This document shows, in pieces, positions 56,964-64,000 of a stretch of DNA of 64,000 nucleotides (position 1 is the stretch's first letter; each line of letters starts with the position of its first letter). The stretch is from contig NZ_CP032098.1 in NCBI RefSeq assembly GCF_003544935.1, positions 2,728,001 through 2,792,000 of the forward strand, written 5' to 3'. The translations under genes were made by a program, and so were the position numbers. This DNA comes from Malaciobacter molluscorum LMG 25693. GTDB taxonomy: Bacteria > Campylobacterota > Campylobacteria > Campylobacterales > Arcobacteraceae. The notes beneath the pieces are model-generated. The model was not told where the DNA came from, did not search any database, and saw only the letters and a list, made by a program, of their open reading frames with translations.

Positions 56964-57028
56964 CTAAAAATTAACTTAAATTGTGTGTAAACAATGCAAT
57001 TAACATTAAGAAAGAAATATGAATTTTT

Positions 57029-57072
57029 ATTCATTTTTAATTCATAAACAATTCATACAAGTAAGTTATATT
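57029..57072 (+). promoter_or_regulatory. Three ATTCAT repeats and promoter of the ABC/oxidase cluster
   Basis: ATTCAT occurs at 57029, 57040 and 57051, exactly 11 bp apart, followed by a possible -10 TATATT at 57067-57072. Direct repeats spaced by one helix turn are the normal sites of OmpR-type response regulators. The repeats lie over the -35 region. Confidence 0.7.
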
Positions 57073-57097: not shown

Positions 57098-58180
57098 TTG
57101 TTGAAATTATCTTTTAAAGCATTAAAAGCAAATAGATTAAAAACTTTTTTAATTATCTTAAGTCTTGTTTTTTCTATTACTTCAATTTTTTTAATTACTT
57201 CAATTTCAAATGGAGTTATATCAATGTATTCATCTATGTTAAAAAGTGATGGAGATATTATTATTACACAAAAAAACATCTCTGATACATTTTTTTCAAA
57301 TGTAGATATAAGATTAATAGATAAATTAAAAGAATTAAAACAAATAAAAAAAGCATCTGCTTTAATTGTTGGAGCTTCTATTGTAGAAAATTTACCAATT
57401 GTAGCTGTTTATGGTGTTACTAAAAATAGATTTAATAATTATAATTTAAAAAAAGGATCATATCCAAATATTGGAGAAGTTTTAGTAGGTAAATCTATAT
57501 ATGAATCTCTTAAAAATAAAAAAGATGTATTAATTTCAAATAAAAAATTTAAAATATCAGGTATTTTCCAAAGCAAAATTGGTTTTGAAAATGGAGGAGT
57601 TGTACTAAATATTCAAGATGCAAGTAATATATTTAATAAAAGTGCATCAATGATAATGTTAAATTGCAAAATAGATACTAATATAGATGAATTAGTAAAA
57701 AAAATAAATAAAATAGATACAAACATTCAAGCTAAATCTACCACTAACTTTGTAGATAACTATAATCAATTTAAAATAATCAAAACTTCATCAAATGTAA
57801 TATCTTTTATCTCATTTTGTATGGGATTATTAACTATTGCATCAATTTTAAGTATCACAATAAATCAAAGAAAAACAGAGTTTGGAATTAAAAGAGCAAT
57901 TGGTATTTCTATGAAAAAAATACTTCTTCAAATTATGAGTGAAAGTATTATATTAGCAATTGTTAGTTTTATTATCTCTATTTGTATTTCAAATATTATT
58001 TTATTTTTTATAAAAAATATATCTTACTTACATGGATATGTAAATGGAGAAATATCTTTTGATATTGCAATATTTATATTTATAACTTCTCTTTTAATAG
58101 CCCTACTTGGCTCTATTATTCCAGCACTTAATGCATCAAAAACAGATCCTATTATTTTAATACAAGGAAATAAAATATGA
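57098..58180 (+). CDS. ABC transporter permease, MacB/LolC-like
   Basis: A 360-residue permease with an N-terminal helix (residues about 17-40), a periplasmic domain and three C-terminal helices (about 225-250, 280-305 and 325-345). The signature GIKRAIGISMKKILLQIMSE near residue 268 is the FtsX-type region before the second helix. The layout matches MacB, LolC and YknZ-type permeases that move lipids or peptides out of the membrane rather than import solutes. TTG codons at 57098 and 57101 are the only starts near the RBS AAGG, and the gene overlaps its ATPase by 4 bp. Substrate unknown. Confidence 0.85.
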   Translation: MLKLSFKALKANRLKTFLIILSLVFSITSIFLITSISNGVISMYSSMLKSDGDIIITQKNISDTFFSNVDIRLIDKLKELKQIKKASALIVGASIVENLPIVAVYGVTKNRFNNYNLKKGSYPNIGEVLVGKSIYESLKNKKDVLISNKKFKISGIFQSKIGFENGGVVLNIQDASNIFNKSASMIMLNCKIDTNIDELVKKINKIDTNIQAKSTTNFVDNYNQFKIIKTSSNVISFISFCMGLLTIASILSITINQRKTEFGIKRAIGISMKKILLQIMSESIILAIVSFIISICISNIILFFIKNISYLHGYVNGEISFDIAIFIFITSLLIALLGSIIPALNASKTDPIILIQGNKI

Positions 58181-58797
58181 TTAAGATAAAAAATATTTCA
58201 CATAAATATGAAAAAGATTTTGTATTAAAAAATATAAATCTTGAAATAAAAAGAGGCTCATTCATTGCAATAACAGGAGAAAGTGGAAGTGGTAAGACTA
58301 CACTTTTATCTATTCTTTCAACTTTATTAAAACCCACTAGTGGAGATCTTTATTTTGAAGGAATAAATTATAAAGATATAAAAAACATAGATGAATTTAG
58401 ACAAAAAAACATTGGATTTATTTTTCAATTTCATTATTTAATTAATTATTTAACAGTTAAAGAAAATATCCAATTAGCAAATGAAAAAGCTAGTGATAAA
58501 AAAATTGAACAAGTATTAAAACAATTACATATAGAAAATTTAATTGATTCTTATGCAAATGAAATTTCAGGAGGACAAAGGCAAAGAGTTGCAATAGCAA
58601 GAGCATTAATAAATAATCCAAAGATAATTTTTGCAGATGAACCAACTGGAAATTTAGATTCAAAAAATTCATTAAATGTTTTTAATATTTTTCAAGAACT
58701 AATAAAACAAGGTGTGACTTTAGTTGTGGCAACACATGATAAAAACTTAGCAAGTTTAGCAAATATAAACATTGAGGTAAAAGATGGACAACTTTAA
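58177..58797 (+). CDS. ABC transporter ATP-binding protein, LolD/MacB-like
   Basis: A 206-residue ATPase of the LolD/MacB class. Walker A is GESGSGKTTLLSILS, the Q-loop lies in FIFQFHYLINYLT, the signature motif is ISGGQRQRVAIARAL, Walker B is KIIFADEPTGNLDS and the H-loop VVATHDK. It is the energy subunit of the upstream permease, with which it overlaps by ATGA. It overlaps the oxidase-like gene by 14 bp. Confidence 0.93.
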   Translation: MIKIKNISHKYEKDFVLKNINLEIKRGSFIAITGESGSGKTTLLSILSTLLKPTSGDLYFEGINYKDIKNIDEFRQKNIGFIFQFHYLINYLTVKENIQLANEKASDKKIEQVLKQLHIENLIDSYANEISGGQRQRVAIARALINNPKIIFADEPTGNLDSKNSLNVFNIFQELIKQGVTLVVATHDKNLASLANINIEVKDGQL

Positions 58798-60346
58798 TTT
58801 ATTTATAGAAAAACAGTTTAAAGTTTCAATTGTATTTCTATTTATAGGACTTTTTTTTGGTATTTTATACTCTATTAATTTACTTGGATTTTTTATTGAT
58901 TCTACTACATTAAATCCTGTAAATATAAGAGCAATTCATATTTCACTTATGCTATATGGTTTTATTCCATTAATGCTATCTTATTTACCTTTTTTGTTAA
59001 TAAATAAAGAAGTAGGAAATAGTAAAGAAGGATTATTTTATTTAAATTTATACACTATCTTTTGGTATATCTTTTTAATTTTTATGATTAATACTTTATT
59101 ATTTGGAAATACAAGAGGTTTAGCCTTTTATGATTTTTCATATGAGTTAAATTTTATTTTAGCTTTTGCAGGTTTATTTTATATTATTGCTTTATATAAA
59201 TTTATAAAACTATATAAAGTAAAACCAACTTGGGTAAAAGTTTCTTTATATATAGTAATTGCTGCACCCTTTACTCTTCTTATTTTAATGAACCCAACAA
59301 TAGGACAAGTAGAAAGCACTATTTCTGGCCCACATGGTGATAACACTTTAGGAATGAGTTTTGCTTTAATTCCAATATATTATTTAATAATCAAACTTTT
59401 AAGTAAAAATGATTTTAAAGCAAGATGGAATATTTTTTGGATTATTCCTTTTGTTTTTTATATTTTATCTGTTTTATATAGAAGCTTTATTGGACATCTA
59501 ACTTATAATCAAGAGTGGTTTTTTCAATATCTTACACTATTTTATATTCCTTTACTTTACAGATGGTATAAAGATGCAAATATTGAAAAATACTCAAAAC
59601 TTGCACTTTTAATATCAATTGTTGCATTTTTATTTGTGGATATAGAAGGAAATATACTATTTATACCAGAACTTAGATGGGTTTTTCATAGAAATGATTT
59701 AGTTGTTGCACATGCACATGTAGCTATGGGAATTGGTGTATTTTTTATGGTAATTTCAATGTTTGTTTCATATATAAAACAACTTCAAAAAATAAACTTT
59801 TATACTCTTTATTTAAGTGGTTTAATAGGTATTTTTACTGTTTTAACACTAAGTGGTTTAGCTCAAGCTTCTATGTTAAATACTTCAACTTATACACTTT
59901 GGGAATTTAGAACATTTTTTGGAATCATTACATTTTTATCAATAATTGCATTTATTCAAATAAGAACAAAATATTCTTTATTAGAAAAATATAATATTTT
60001 TGGTGTTTTAAGTGATGGATTAGGTGGAATTTTTTTAATCTTACTATCTAGTTATTTATATCCACTTTTTAGTTTCAGTTTTCAAGGTAAATATGAATAT
60101 GTAGTTTTTGCTTTTGTAAGTATGACAGGGGTTATTCATTATCTTGCATTTAAATATAAAGTTCATGAAAATATACTTACAAAACTTACTGTTTTTATTA
60201 GAGTATTTGTAAGTTCAATATTTTTCTCTTTATATTTAGCAAAATCACTTCATATTGTTGCACTACTAATATCTTTATTTGATATTTCAATGGTTGTATT
60301 TTATTTAGTTTATATTTATAAAAAGGAGCAATTATGCAAAAAGTAG
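58784..60346 (+). CDS. Diverged heme-copper oxidase / NO reductase-like subunit I
   Basis: A 520-residue membrane protein of about fourteen helices that aligns by eye with CcoN and NorB. Helix II has RAIHIS (His52, low-spin heme ligand) and LVVAHAHVAMG gives His310 and His312, the paired heme ligands. The upstream IEGNILFIPELRW matches the FEGPMMS segment of CcoN. The active-site metal ligands differ: the GHNAVG His aligns with Asp186 in GDNTLG (His184 nearby), and the His-His pair with Gly237-His238. This resembles the gNOR-type NO reductases, where an active-site His is reportedly replaced by Asp. Enzyme activity is therefore plausible but not shown. Confidence 0.7.
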   Translation: MDNFNLFIEKQFKVSIVFLFIGLFFGILYSINLLGFFIDSTTLNPVNIRAIHISLMLYGFIPLMLSYLPFLLINKEVGNSKEGLFYLNLYTIFWYIFLIFMINTLLFGNTRGLAFYDFSYELNFILAFAGLFYIIALYKFIKLYKVKPTWVKVSLYIVIAAPFTLLILMNPTIGQVESTISGPHGDNTLGMSFALIPIYYLIIKLLSKNDFKARWNIFWIIPFVFYILSVLYRSFIGHLTYNQEWFFQYLTLFYIPLLYRWYKDANIEKYSKLALLISIVAFLFVDIEGNILFIPELRWVFHRNDLVVAHAHVAMGIGVFFMVISMFVSYIKQLQKINFYTLYLSGLIGIFTVLTLSGLAQASMLNTSTYTLWEFRTFFGIITFLSIIAFIQIRTKYSLLEKYNIFGVLSDGLGGIFLILLSSYLYPLFSFSFQGKYEYVVFAFVSMTGVIHYLAFKYKVHENILTKLTVFIRVFVSSIFFSLYLAKSLHIVALLISLFDISMVVFYLVYIYKKEQLCKK

Positions 60347-61302
60347 CCTTGGTATTATTTATAGCATTTGAATTATGTTATTACTTATTAATAGCACAAA
60401 CAGGAATTGTAGAACACTTCTCATCAAATATATTTAATATTGCTTTTTTACCTATTGGAGGTATTATTGGTTCAATTTTAAGTTTTATAATTAAAATTTC
60501 TGAAAAAAAGAAGATTATTGGATTTTTAACAACACAATTAATTGTTAGTATATTTTATCCAAATCTAAACTCTTTTTTATTGTTGATTCTAGGTTTTAGT
60601 GTTGGTGCATTAGCTCCTTTATTAATAAATGAATTAAAAAAAGCATCAAATATTCAATTAGGTTTTGCACTAGCAATATCATATACTCTTGGAACTTTTT
60701 TATTTACATATGATGCAAGTAAAAGAACAAATATTGCTATTTTATTTACAATTATTACTTTAATATCATCATTTTTTCTTGATATGAAGAAACATAAAGA
60801 TTTGAGTAAAAATAGTGCAAACTTTCCACTTTTTGTGATGGTTTTATGGATATTTTTAGATTCTTGTTTATTTGAAACATTATCAAGAGATATTGATATT
60901 TCAATATGGAGAAATGGTTTTAGTTTAGAAATAGCAATATTTCATATTATTGGTGTTGTGTGTGCATTTTATTTCAAAATGGAAAGAGTTCAAAAAGAAC
61001 TTTTTATTATAACTTTATTTGCACTTTCATACTTATTTTTCTTTTTACATGAACCATTGATTTTATCAATAATTTATCCTTTCGTAATATCTTTTTACAA
61101 TGTAGTAATACTTCAAACAATAGTAAAAAAAGATTTAAAAACATTAGGAATTTATATGATATTTATAGGATGGATAGCTTCAGGAGGTGGATTATTTGTA
61201 GCTTTAGGAAACTTAATTTTATATGTACCATTAATATTTTTCATTTCATTAATAAAAATATTAATTACACAAATTCAAAATAAGGAGATAGCATATGTAT
61301 AA
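60334..61302 (+). CDS. Unknown polytopic membrane protein
   Basis: A 322-residue protein with about ten membrane helices and short loops. I do not recognise the family; some MFS-like features exist (GFSVGALAPLLINELKKAS after the third helix), but no conserved motif is clear. It starts with RBS AAGGAG, overlaps the oxidase-like gene by 13 bp and the YceI gene by 8 bp. Its position suggests a partner in the same membrane complex or transport of its cofactor. Confidence 0.65.
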   Translation: MQKVALVLFIAFELCYYLLIAQTGIVEHFSSNIFNIAFLPIGGIIGSILSFIIKISEKKKIIGFLTTQLIVSIFYPNLNSFLLLILGFSVGALAPLLINELKKASNIQLGFALAISYTLGTFLFTYDASKRTNIAILFTIITLISSFFLDMKKHKDLSKNSANFPLFVMVLWIFLDSCLFETLSRDIDISIWRNGFSLEIAIFHIIGVVCAFYFKMERVQKELFIITLFALSYLFFFLHEPLILSIIYPFVISFYNVVILQTIVKKDLKTLGIYMIFIGWIASGGGLFVALGNLILYVPLIFFISLIKILITQIQNKEIAYV

Positions 61303-61819
61303 GTTAATTGTATTAGCATTTTTTGCTGTTGCATTAAATGCTCAAAATTTAGATTTTTTAAATGGAAAAATCTTAGCACATACTGAAGTTTTTGGAGATA
61401 GTAATATAAATCCATTTTCTCAAAATATAAAATCACAGCTTACAATAGAAAAAAAGATTGATTCTATCAAAGGAGAAATTGAGTTAAACACTACTTCTTT
61501 ACATAGTTCAAATGATAAAAGAGATGAACATATGTATGAAGTTTTGCATATTAAAAAGTTTCCTAAAATAAATTACTTAATTTCTGAAATTAGAAAAGTA
61601 GAAGATGGCTATGAAATAAATGGTATTCTAACACTAAACGGTATAAAAAAAATAGTTACATCTAAAGCTAAAATAATAGATGAAAATAACCATATTATTT
61701 TTGATGGAAAATTTAGTATTAAATTAACTTCATTTAATATAGAACGACCAACAATGTTCTTTTTAACAGTTAGAGATCAAGTTGATATTACTTATCATTT
61801 AGATTATATAAAAGGATAA
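61295..61819 (+). CDS. YceI-like lipid-binding periplasmic protein
   Basis: A 174-residue protein with a signal peptide (residues 1-16) and the YceI beta-barrel pattern: IKGEIELNTTSLHSSNDKRD near residue 65, HIKKFPKINYLIS and NGILTLNGIKKIVTSKAKII, ending with FNIERPTMFFLTVRDQVDI. YceI proteins bind isoprenoid lipids, including quinones. Next to a heme-copper-type protein a quinone or lipid carrier role is attractive but inferred. Confidence 0.85.
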   Translation: MYKLIVLAFFAVALNAQNLDFLNGKILAHTEVFGDSNINPFSQNIKSQLTIEKKIDSIKGEIELNTTSLHSSNDKRDEHMYEVLHIKKFPKINYLISEIRKVEDGYEINGILTLNGIKKIVTSKAKIIDENNHIIFDGKFSIKLTSFNIERPTMFFLTVRDQVDITYHLDYIKG

Positions 61820-61822
61820 TTT

Positions 61823-62272
61823 TTGAAAAAAATAATACTAATAGTATGTTTAGTTTTTTTTGCAAATGCAAAAGAGTTTCATGTTAAAGATAATATAGGA
61901 AGTTTTTCTTTACTTGATCAATTTGATACAAAACATACAATAAATAAAAATATAAAAACTATTATTGTTTCATTTGAAAAACAAACAAGCAAAGATATAA
62001 ATAAATTTTTAAATTCTAAAAATGCAACATTTTTAAAAGAACATAATGCCGTATTTATAGCAAATATTTCTGGTATGCCAACAATAATAACAAAACTTTT
62101 TGCATTACCTAAAATGAAAGAGTATAAACATAAAATTTTATTAATATATGATGATGCAGATACAAGATTTAAAAGTGTTGAAGGTAAATCAACTTTATAT
62201 AGATTAAAAAATGGTGTAATAACACAAATTAAATTTATAACTAAAGATGATTTACAAAAAGTGTTTGAATGA
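61823..62272 (+). CDS. Periplasmic thioredoxin-fold-like protein without CxxC
   Basis: A 149-residue protein with a signal peptide (residues 1-16). The segment FSLLDQFDTKHTINKNIKTI with later KILLIYDDADTRFKS and IYRLKNGVI-like strands suggests a peroxiredoxin- or YtfJ-like fold, but no redox Cys pair exists after the signal (only two Cys within the leader region). It begins at TTG 61823 after RBS AAGGA, and its stop overlaps the next gene by ATGA. Function unknown; a chaperone for the oxidase-like protein is possible. Confidence 0.65.
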   Translation: MKKIILIVCLVFFANAKEFHVKDNIGSFSLLDQFDTKHTINKNIKTIIVSFEKQTSKDINKFLNSKNATFLKEHNAVFIANISGMPTIITKLFALPKMKEYKHKILLIYDDADTRFKSVEGKSTLYRLKNGVITQIKFITKDDLQKVFE

Positions 62273-62988
62273 AATTACCAAAAATATCAAACATTAATAT
62301 AAATATTAAAAATGAAGATTTGCACAATATGCAAATTCTTCATTTAAGTGATTTACATATAAATAAAAGAACTTCAGTTGAAAACATAAAAACACTTGTT
62401 GATATTTGTAATAATATAAAATATGATATTTTAGTAATAACGGGTGATATAATAGATTGTAAAGTAAAGAAAATACAAAATTTACTAAAAATTTTGAATA
62501 ATTTAGAAAAAGTATATTATATAAGTGGTAATCATGATCTATTTTATGGAATAAAAGATTTAGAAAAAATATTAGATAATTTTAATTTTATAGATAATAA
62601 AACTCTATTTATAAAATACAATGATAAAAATATAGCAATAGCTGGACTTAGTGATAGATTTTCTAAATTTTTTAAGATAAAACGAGATGAAAATAAAATA
62701 ATAAATTTTTTAAAAAAGAATAAAAACTCTATTTTATTAGCCCATCAACCAAAAGATTATAATTTTGCAGTAAACACAAATACAAATCTCTTTTTATGTG
62801 GTCATACACATGGTGGTCAAATATTTCCTTTTCATTATCTTGTAAAGTTAGTACAACCTTTTTTAAATGGGCTTCATTATAAAAAAAATAGTGCTATTTA
62901 TGTAAATAAGGGTTTAGGAACATGGGGTATTGACTTTAGATATAAAGCAAATAATGAAATTACTCTCATTAAATTAATACATAAATAA
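62269..62988 (+). CDS. Metallophosphoesterase, YkuE/YaeI-like
   Basis: A 239-residue phosphoesterase with every metal motif: LHLSDLHINKR, ITGDIIDCK, SGNHDLFYG, LLAHQPKDY and LCGHTHGGQI. It is a shorter paralogue of the protein at 52727, sharing its C-terminal half but lacking the membrane helices and twin-arginine segment. Lipid phosphates are a likely substrate by family. It is coupled to the upstream gene through a 4-base overlap. Confidence 0.85.
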   Translation: MKLPKISNININIKNEDLHNMQILHLSDLHINKRTSVENIKTLVDICNNIKYDILVITGDIIDCKVKKIQNLLKILNNLEKVYYISGNHDLFYGIKDLEKILDNFNFIDNKTLFIKYNDKNIAIAGLSDRFSKFFKIKRDENKIINFLKKNKNSILLAHQPKDYNFAVNTNTNLFLCGHTHGGQIFPFHYLVKLVQPFLNGLHYKKNSAIYVNKGLGTWGIDFRYKANNEITLIKLIHK

Positions 62989-62990
62989 CT

Positions 62991-63026
62991 ATTCATTTTA
63001 TATTCATATTTTTTTTGTATTATAAT
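62991..63026 (+). promoter_or_regulatory. Two ATTCAT repeats and promoter of the response regulator gene
   Basis: ATTCAT occurs at 62991 and 63002, again exactly 11 bp apart, in front of a TATAAT box at 63021-63026 with TGTAT before it. The second repeat takes the place of a -35 box, as expected for an OmpR-type activator site. Confidence 0.7.
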
Positions 63027-63052
63027 GTATAATTAAAAATATTGAGGCTTAT

Positions 63053-63721
63053 ATGAAAATTTTAGTAATTGAAGATGATGAAAAAATTGTAAACTTTCTA
63101 AAAAAAGGACTAGAAGAAGAAACATATATAGTTGACTACTGTTTAAATGGAGATGAAGGTATATATTTAGCAACTGTAAATGAATATGATTTAATACTTC
63201 TTGATATTATGATTCCTGTAAAAGATGGAATTGAAGTATGCAAAACTCTTAGAAAATCAAATATAAATACTCCCATTATCATGTTAACTGCAAAAGATTC
63301 TATTGAAGATAAAATAAAAGGTTTAGATATTGGAGCTAATGATTATTTAGCAAAACCTTTTTCATTTAGTGAACTATTAGCTAGAATTAGAGTTCAATTA
63401 AGAACAAGTTATTCAAATCAAACTATTCTTAAAATTGATGATTTAGAACTAAATTTATTAACAAAATCTGCTAAAAGAGCAGAAGATAATATAAATTTAA
63501 CAGCAAAAGAATTTGCACTTTTAGAATACTTGATAAAAAATAAAGATAAAGTATTATCTGAAAGTGTAATAAGTTCAGCTCTAAGTAATATGGATGATAC
63601 AAATATAAGTAATATAGTTAATGTATATATTTATAGATTAAGAAATAAAATAGATAAACCATATGAAAAAAAACTAATAAAAACAATGAGAGGATTAGGG
63701 TTTAAAATAAGTGATGACTAA
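63053..63721 (+). CDS. OmpR-family response regulator
   Basis: A 222-residue regulator. The receiver domain has the acidic pair IEDDEK, the phosphorylated Asp in LILLDIMIPVKDG near residue 51, MLTAKDS and the Lys of YLAKPFSFSEL. The winged-helix DNA-binding domain ends with NIVNVYIYRLRNKID and MRGLGFKI. The ATTCAT repeats in front of this gene and of the 57098 cluster are candidate binding sites. The partner kinase follows with an 8-bp overlap. Confidence 0.93.
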   Translation: MKILVIEDDEKIVNFLKKGLEEETYIVDYCLNGDEGIYLATVNEYDLILLDIMIPVKDGIEVCKTLRKSNINTPIIMLTAKDSIEDKIKGLDIGANDYLAKPFSFSELLARIRVQLRTSYSNQTILKIDDLELNLLTKSAKRAEDNINLTAKEFALLEYLIKNKDKVLSESVISSALSNMDDTNISNIVNVYIYRLRNKIDKPYEKKLIKTMRGLGFKISDD

Positions 63722-64000
63722 TTTATCAATTAAAAAAAAGTTATTAATTTACAATATAATAATTCAAACAATAATACTTTTATTGTTCTCTTTTTCTTTA
63801 TATAAAACACTTGAATCATCTTCAAAAGATAAACTTGAATCAACTTTAAAAGTAATTGTACTTGATGTAGTTGATGATATAGTTGAACATAAAGATAAAT
63901 TAACAAAAAGAGTTTTTAATGAAGAAAAAGAGTATAAATTTAAGCCTTTATATATAAGACTTCTAAAAATTGATGATACATATGAAGTAATAAATTCTAC
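63714..64000 (+). CDS. Sensor histidine kinase, 3' end outside the window
   Basis: Starts ATG at 63714, overlapping the response regulator stop by 8 bp. Only about 95 codons are present. They show a basic N-terminus, one membrane helix (about residues 10-29, LLIYNIIIQTIILLLFSFSL) and the beginning of a charged periplasmic sensor region. No kinase motif is inside the window, so the call rests on position and the N-terminal shape. Confidence 0.8.
   Translation, partial: MTNLSIKKKLLIYNIIIQTIILLLFSFSLYKTLESSSKDKLESTLKVIVLDVVDDIVEHKDKLTKRVFNEEKEYKFKPLYIRLLKIDDTYEVINS

Follow-up and report, generated by a model that had tools for sequence, protein, structure and literature searches.

A conserved Campylobacterota gene cluster combines a COX1-like protein without the CuB/FeB histidine pair, a YceI lipocalin and an ABC exporter, and is possibly an envelope-stress module

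In Burkholderia, the YceI lipocalin BcnA is co-transcribed with LcoA, a cytochrome b561, and the pair is needed to limit lipid peroxidation in the membrane during exposure to polymyxin, norfloxacin, tellurite or cold. That study proposed that LcoA re-reduces a quinone carried by BcnA (PMC9113575). BcnA has also been described as an antibiotic-binding lipocalin (PMC5350466, PMC6291622). Here, we describe a locus of Malaciobacter molluscorum that resembles the LcoA-BcnA-PsrA system of Burkholderia cenocepacia in pairing a YceI-type lipocalin with a multi-helix membrane protein in which b-type hemes are expected. In Burkholderia, the genes are linked to polymyxin and oxidant stress; the genes analysed here come with a PmrA/CopR-like regulator beside eptA. 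The two systems differ in the partner of the lipocalin, which here is a COX1-fold protein with 16 predicted helices rather than a cytochrome b561 (Pfam found no b561 domain in the operon). They differ also in that our cluster adds an ABC exporter, a major-facilitator superfamily (MFS)-fold protein, a small secreted protein and a hydrolase, and has no aldehyde reductase. By analogy with LcoA-BcnA, we tentatively propose that the cluster is an envelope-stress system that would use a YceI lipocalin and a b-heme protein supplied by quinol to handle oxidised lipid or quinone. The original prediction from this DNA held that no described system has this gene set; this agrees with the open-access literature we searched, in which no paper joins YceI with these genes (subscription papers and preprints lie outside that coverage).

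The window, the whole 64,000-nucleotide stretch that was analysed, lies at positions 2728001-2792000 in a 2.8-Mb genome that consists of a single contig. Its relevant features, in window coordinates, are as follows.

57019-57056, + strand: putative regulator box of the operon, ATGAA-N6-TTCAT-N6-TTCAT-N6-TTCAT (motif search)
57098-58180, + strand: ABC permease of the MacB/LolC type (MacB_PCD and FtsX; Pfam), with a TTG start
58177-58797, + strand: ABC exporter ATPase of the LolD/MacB/FtsE type (Pfam ABC_tran)
58784-60346, + strand: COX1-like membrane protein, 520 aa (fold; Pfam COX1 in relatives)
60334-61302, + strand: 322-aa MFS-fold membrane protein (predicted structure matches)
61295-61819, + strand: secreted YceI-type lipocalin (PF04264)
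61823-62272, + strand: 149-aa secreted protein of no recognisable family (family alignment)
62269-62988, + strand: calcineurin-like phosphoesterase, YaeI/LpxG-related (PF00149)
62992-63007, + strand: putative regulator box of the two-component operon, TTCAT-N6-TTCAT (motif search)
63053-63721, + strand: response regulator of the OmpR/PmrA/CopR type (PF00072, PF00486)
63711-65084, + strand (the window stops at 64000): sensor histidine kinase, 457 aa (NCBIfam)

As originally predicted, these genes form a cluster: all lie on the + strand, the seven from permease to phosphoesterase (57098-62988) overlap or are 3 nt apart, and the regulator-kinase pair follows 64 nt after the phosphoesterase with its own box. 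Beyond the window end, the two-component pair is followed by eptA and a dgkA-like gene (L003:13188-15148, equal to 65188-67148 in window numbering). The eptA product, a lipid A phosphoethanolamine transferase, scores 668.7 bits against an NCBIfam cut-off of 500, and the 117-aa dgkA-like product had no match among NCBIfam models. A generic promoter and terminator scan did no better than on shuffled sequence.

Gene neighbourhoods were compared in more than 40 loci. Six genes (permease, ATPase, COX1-like, 322-aa, YceI and 149-aa) recur with a phosphoesterase or a metallo-beta-lactamase hydrolase in Arcobacteraceae, Sulfurospirillum, other Campylobacterota and one gammaproteobacterium-like MAG, in shuffled orders. 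Arcobacteraceae and Sulfurospirillum arcachonense share the order permease-ATPase-COX1-like-322aa-YceI-149aa-phosphoesterase-regulator-kinase; in a few of these loci one gene is absent or moved, such as the 149-aa gene (L037) or the regulator pair (L035). In other families the genes are rearranged; for instance, loci L066 and L052 have the order 322aa-YceI-permease-ATPase-COX1-like-149aa-hydrolase, and L072-L074 have phosphoesterase-149aa-permease-ATPase-COX1-like-322aa-YceI. Of 397 sampled Campylobacterota genomes, 60 encode both the COX1-like and the 322-aa protein (E < 1e-70), and none encodes one without the other. Conservation of these genes side by side is far beyond chance, and the cluster is one conserved module. 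This bears out the original prediction of a single system, and the comparison across Campylobacterota did not find the genes apart in close relatives.

Most Campylobacter and Helicobacter genomes are without the module. Among the genomes listed for an Aliarcobacter-like genus (g2), 9 carry it and 8 do not; because presence is patchy within this genus, frequent gain or loss is suggested. A further copy, with 42% identity, is carried by the 5-Mb gammaproteobacterium-like MAG. A 16S search in that MAG found nothing and rpoB was used instead: its RpoB is 47-48% identical to those of Campylobacterota and its rpoB DNA is 69% identical to that of E. coli. Provided that the MAG bin is not mixed, the system therefore extends beyond Campylobacterota. 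Other phyla were covered only lightly, by one scan of a genome collection with a single sequence, and a plasmid search with the COX1-like protein as query gave no match. In a Sulfurospirillum-group genome, the COX1-like gene (G379:C1:1208640-1210187, minus strand) has eight in-frame stops and the MFS-fold gene is intact; the module there seems to be decaying. One MAG encodes, directly 3' of the cluster, a 613-aa protein with MtrC-like and cytochrome c7-like matches (L048:6833-8671), possibly a multiheme partner.

The permease matches PF12704 (E 1.3e-16) and PF02687 (E 2.5e-16) and the ATPase matches PF00005 (E 3.9e-38). The MacB_PCD plus FtsX permease and LolD-like ATPase resemble the MacB/LolCDE type VII ABC systems, but both proteins score under curated cut-offs: the permease is beneath every NCBIfam equivalog threshold (LolCE 46 of 362 bits, MacB 36 of 966), and the best NCBIfam model for the ATPase, LolD, gives 203 bits against 307.75. 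The pair also differs from those systems in lacking MacA or a second Lol permease and in being the fixed partner of a heme protein. Its neighbour, the 322-aa protein, had been read as an unknown protein of ten helices; instead, its AlphaFold (AF2) model (pLDDT 90) has a major-facilitator fold by Foldseek and VIA-align. The match to EfpA has Z 25.0 over 300 residues, and many MFS transporters match at Z 22-25 over about 300 of the 322. These include the drug pumps EfpA and NorA and also Spns1 and MFSD2A, and EfpA has been solved with lipids bound. The 322-aa protein matched no Pfam or other sequence family, and a PDB sequence-profile search with the MFS-fold family returned nothing. The lipocalin matches PF04264 (E 4.6e-19), and its profile matches solved YceI structures; three further YceI genes lie outside the cluster in the host genome.

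The remaining two genes of the operon encode the 149-aa protein and the phosphoesterase. For the former, the label thioredoxin-fold-like gained no support: no match was found in Pfam, in a PDB profile search or by hhalign against the AhpC/TSA proteins of the genome, the last a weak comparison in which several redoxin sequences were short or out of frame, and the family alignment conserves MP and ALPK motifs and no cysteine. The phosphoesterase matches PF00149 (E 9.4e-15) and scores 94.6 bits with YaeI and 82.9 bits with LpxG, both under cut-off. Several clades have in its place a 300-aa metallo-beta-lactamase-type hydrolase adjoining the cluster (L066:11153-12064, L052:11982-12896, L048:242-1213, L049:2553-3446, L069:12401-13315 and L071:12038-12952), with PF12706 in the copies tested. 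This swap of one hydrolase for another suggests hydrolysis as one step of the pathway. The other assignments of the original prediction, a MacB/LolC-like ABC pair (MacB_PCD and FtsX, ABC_tran), YceI, a phosphoesterase (Metallophos) and a response regulator (Response_reg and Trans_reg_C), were confirmed by Pfam and NCBIfam.

Such components could simply move lipid or quinone between the inner and outer membranes. LolCDE-like extraction would hand an isoprenoid, menaquinone or phospholipid to YceI, and the heme protein would set the redox state of the cargo with no repair involved. The similarity to LolC and LolD, the lipocalin and the lipid-transporting relatives among the MFS matches (lipid-bound EfpA, Spns1, MFSD2A) favor this account. 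However, presence in a patchy 60 of 397 genomes fits a conditional trait better than a core lipid supply, and the regulator is of a stress type; we consider trafficking rather unlikely.

The response regulator carries both PF00072 and PF00486; its best NCBIfam model, a heavy-metal regulator subfamily, scores 250 bits (cut-off 279.2), and the kinase reaches 239 bits with cztS_silS_copS (cut-off 292.55). The operon box has a PmrA-box-like layout with an 11-bp period. Like the PmrAB regulon, the locus has an OmpR-family pair beside eptA-dgkA and direct repeats of that period 5' of the units that would be controlled. The half-site of enterobacterial PmrA is CTTAAT, whereas here it is TTCAT, and the regulator scores nearer CopR/CzcR models. 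The triple TTCAT-N6 repeat occurs once in the 2.8-Mb genome (reversed control, 0), and the full ATGAA plus TTCAT pattern has one perfect match. In relatives, TTCA[TC]-N6-TTCA[TC] lies 5' of the cluster's first gene in 15 of 16 near loci, against a mean of 0.05 for dinucleotide shuffles, and in 8 of 22 distant loci, against a shuffle mean of 0.1. It is present in 5/159 and 4/328 of the other upstream regions in the same near and distant loci, respectively; related genomes are not independent in these counts, so that Fisher values are overstated.

The box at the regulator gene has one mismatch to the 27-base pattern (genome 2790981-2791007), and eptA is preceded by a single ATGAA-N6-TTCAT half-box pair with two mismatches to the full pattern. 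Clustering of boxes at the operon, the regulator and eptA is far above the genome background. A genome-wide regulon search allowing up to 2 mismatches gave 56 matches versus 51 for the reversed control, and because the pattern is no commoner than in this control, we relied on the clustered sites only. The one further site with a single mismatch falls outside the locus, within a chemoreceptor-like coding region, and was dismissed as chance. The regulator gene begins no more than 25 nt from the stop codon of the phosphoesterase gene in most relatives, and in many the response regulator and kinase are merged into the operon, with gaps of -4 to 23 nt. The putative boxes tie the operon to the OmpR-type pair and, in the host genome, to lipid A modification. 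The Sulfurospirillum clusters terminate in a kinase remnant of 220-255 aa with HAMP and HisKA and no ATPase domain, and have no adjacent response regulator (L043:13858-14544, also L042, L046, L047, L054, L055 and L075); some of these loci still have TTCAT boxes 5' of the operon.

A regulator common to the operon and eptA would also suit antimicrobial capture and efflux. YceI would sequester hydrophobic or cationic drugs, the ABC pair and MFS-fold protein would export them, EptA would harden lipid A, and the COX1-like protein would serve to sense energy or redox state. Consistent with this idea are the MacB-type exporter, the nearness of the MFS fold to the drug pumps EfpA and NorA, the boxes common to the operon and eptA, and antibiotic binding by BcnA as described in the papers cited above. 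Yet neither a membrane-fusion protein (MacA) nor an outer-membrane channel is encoded in the cluster, the strict conservation of the heme-protein core is left unexplained and the hosts are mostly environmental, and we judge capture and efflux unlikely, more so than trafficking.

Members of the heme-copper superfamily are textbook enzymes of respiration. The original prediction took the 520-residue protein for an oxidase/NO-reductase-like subunit I, and it does have the NorB/CcoN fold (Z 24-26) and the heme histidines but not the CuB/FeB histidine pair. This copy matches COX1 (PF00115) under the cut-off (E 1.7e-7), 30 of 35 relatives match (best E 5.6e-12), and a PDB sequence-profile search with the family found nothing. 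The AF2 model (pLDDT 86) was compared with solved structures by VIA-align. Residues 1-395 match the NO reductase cNOR (4xyd) at Z 26.1 and the cbb3 oxidase (3mk7) at Z 24.6, over about 365-372 residues with rmsd 4.2-4.3, and the predicted model has the twelve-helix subunit I fold of the superfamily. Four extra C-terminal helices (399-517) lie outside these matches and bring the predicted total to 16.

Aligned by profile to CcoN sequences from relatives (E 4.7e-5, 386 columns), the protein has H52 at the low-spin heme histidine of TM2 and H310/H312 at the His-x-His pair of TM10, with H310 at the high-spin and H312 at the low-spin position. All three are invariant in 42/42 members, among six invariant histidines (52, 184, 302, 310, 312 and 452; n = 42). 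His302 occupies the position that precedes the HxH motif of canonical COX1. By contrast, the TM7 histidine pair for CuB/FeB is absent from 42/42 proteins; position 238, the sole residue aligned with the pair, is histidine in 8/42. The TM7-TM8 segment, His-His in oxidases and NO reductases, reads [L/I][S/T]Y-N-Q-E-W here, with R233, Y241, E244, W245 and Q248 invariant. NorB, whose FeB ligands include a conserved Glu and an HH pair, has GTGHH in relatives at the site where this family has no HH pair. The TM6 copper ligand, the first CuB histidine, aligns with D186, with the invariant H184 two residues upstream in a loop modelled at low confidence. These alignments indicate loss of the CuB/FeB site and probable retention of the heme sites.

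With no CuB/FeB pair in any of the 42 members, oxidase or NO reductase activity is unlikely, and on this ground we rejected the NO-linked (or oxygen-reducing) role of the original prediction. A terminal oxidase or NO reductase module would fit the superfamily fold and the nearest solved structures, cNOR and cbb3. It is nevertheless very improbable: beyond the absent pair and Asp186 at the TM6 ligand, the protein differs from CcoN and NorB in its four extra helices, the cluster has no cytochrome c subunit or NorC/CcoO partner, and the host has a normal CcoN elsewhere. That independent genes merely lie side by side, as the separate two-component and, in the host genome, eptA-dgkA units might suggest, is nearly excluded by the overlaps, the conserved and reshuffled synteny, the identical phyletic pattern and the common boxes.

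We therefore return to the tentative envelope-stress proposal. We favor it because synteny persists in shuffled orders with an identical 60/397 distribution, and the heme histidines are kept without the CuB pair. The best match of the MFS fold is the lipid-bound EfpA and the YceI profile matches. The operon has conserved boxes with related ones at the two-component and eptA genes, and regulator and kinase are merged into the operon in relatives. Finally, there is a precedent for a YceI lipocalin acting with a membrane b-type cytochrome in polymyxin stress and lipid peroxidation (PMC9113575). In the mechanism we envisage, the two-component regulator would sense envelope damage by cationic peptides, metals or oxidants and turn on the module along with lipid A modification. 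Rather than being a terminal oxidase, the COX1-like protein would take electrons from quinol through its b-type hemes and pass them to oxidised lipid or quinone bound to the YceI lipocalin, in line with the LcoA-BcnA proposal. The MacB/LolC-type exporter and MFS-fold protein may extract or flip lipid, and the phosphoesterase (in other clades the metallo-beta-lactamase hydrolase) may cleave a damaged lipid product. The earlier guess of a quinone-linked or membrane-repair function is compatible with the lipocalin, the boxes common with eptA-dgkA and the LcoA-BcnA precedent. Against the envelope-stress proposal, heme binding is predicted from conserved histidines only, and the free-living hosts live mostly under micro-oxic conditions, in which only modest lipid peroxidation is to be expected. 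There is also no LcoA-like sequence relationship, the host has its other YceI genes, and most Campylobacter and Helicobacter do without the module.

Somewhat more doubtful is the specific idea of a repurposed heme-copper-fold protein. With the metal site lost, two hemes retained and four helices added, it would deliver electrons from quinol to a periplasmic lipid or quinone bound by the lipocalin, in obligate coupling with the ABC and MFS proteins. The module looks widespread among free-living relatives of Campylobacter and, in the open-access papers searched, seemingly undescribed. If the envelope-stress proposal is true, it would be the Campylobacterota counterpart of a recently found bacterial defence against lipid peroxidation, with an identified regulator and a predicted binding site. 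If the protein was repurposed as envisaged, a member of the heme-copper family would have a non-respiratory job, and a branch of the superfamily would have dropped oxygen and NO chemistry for envelope maintenance.
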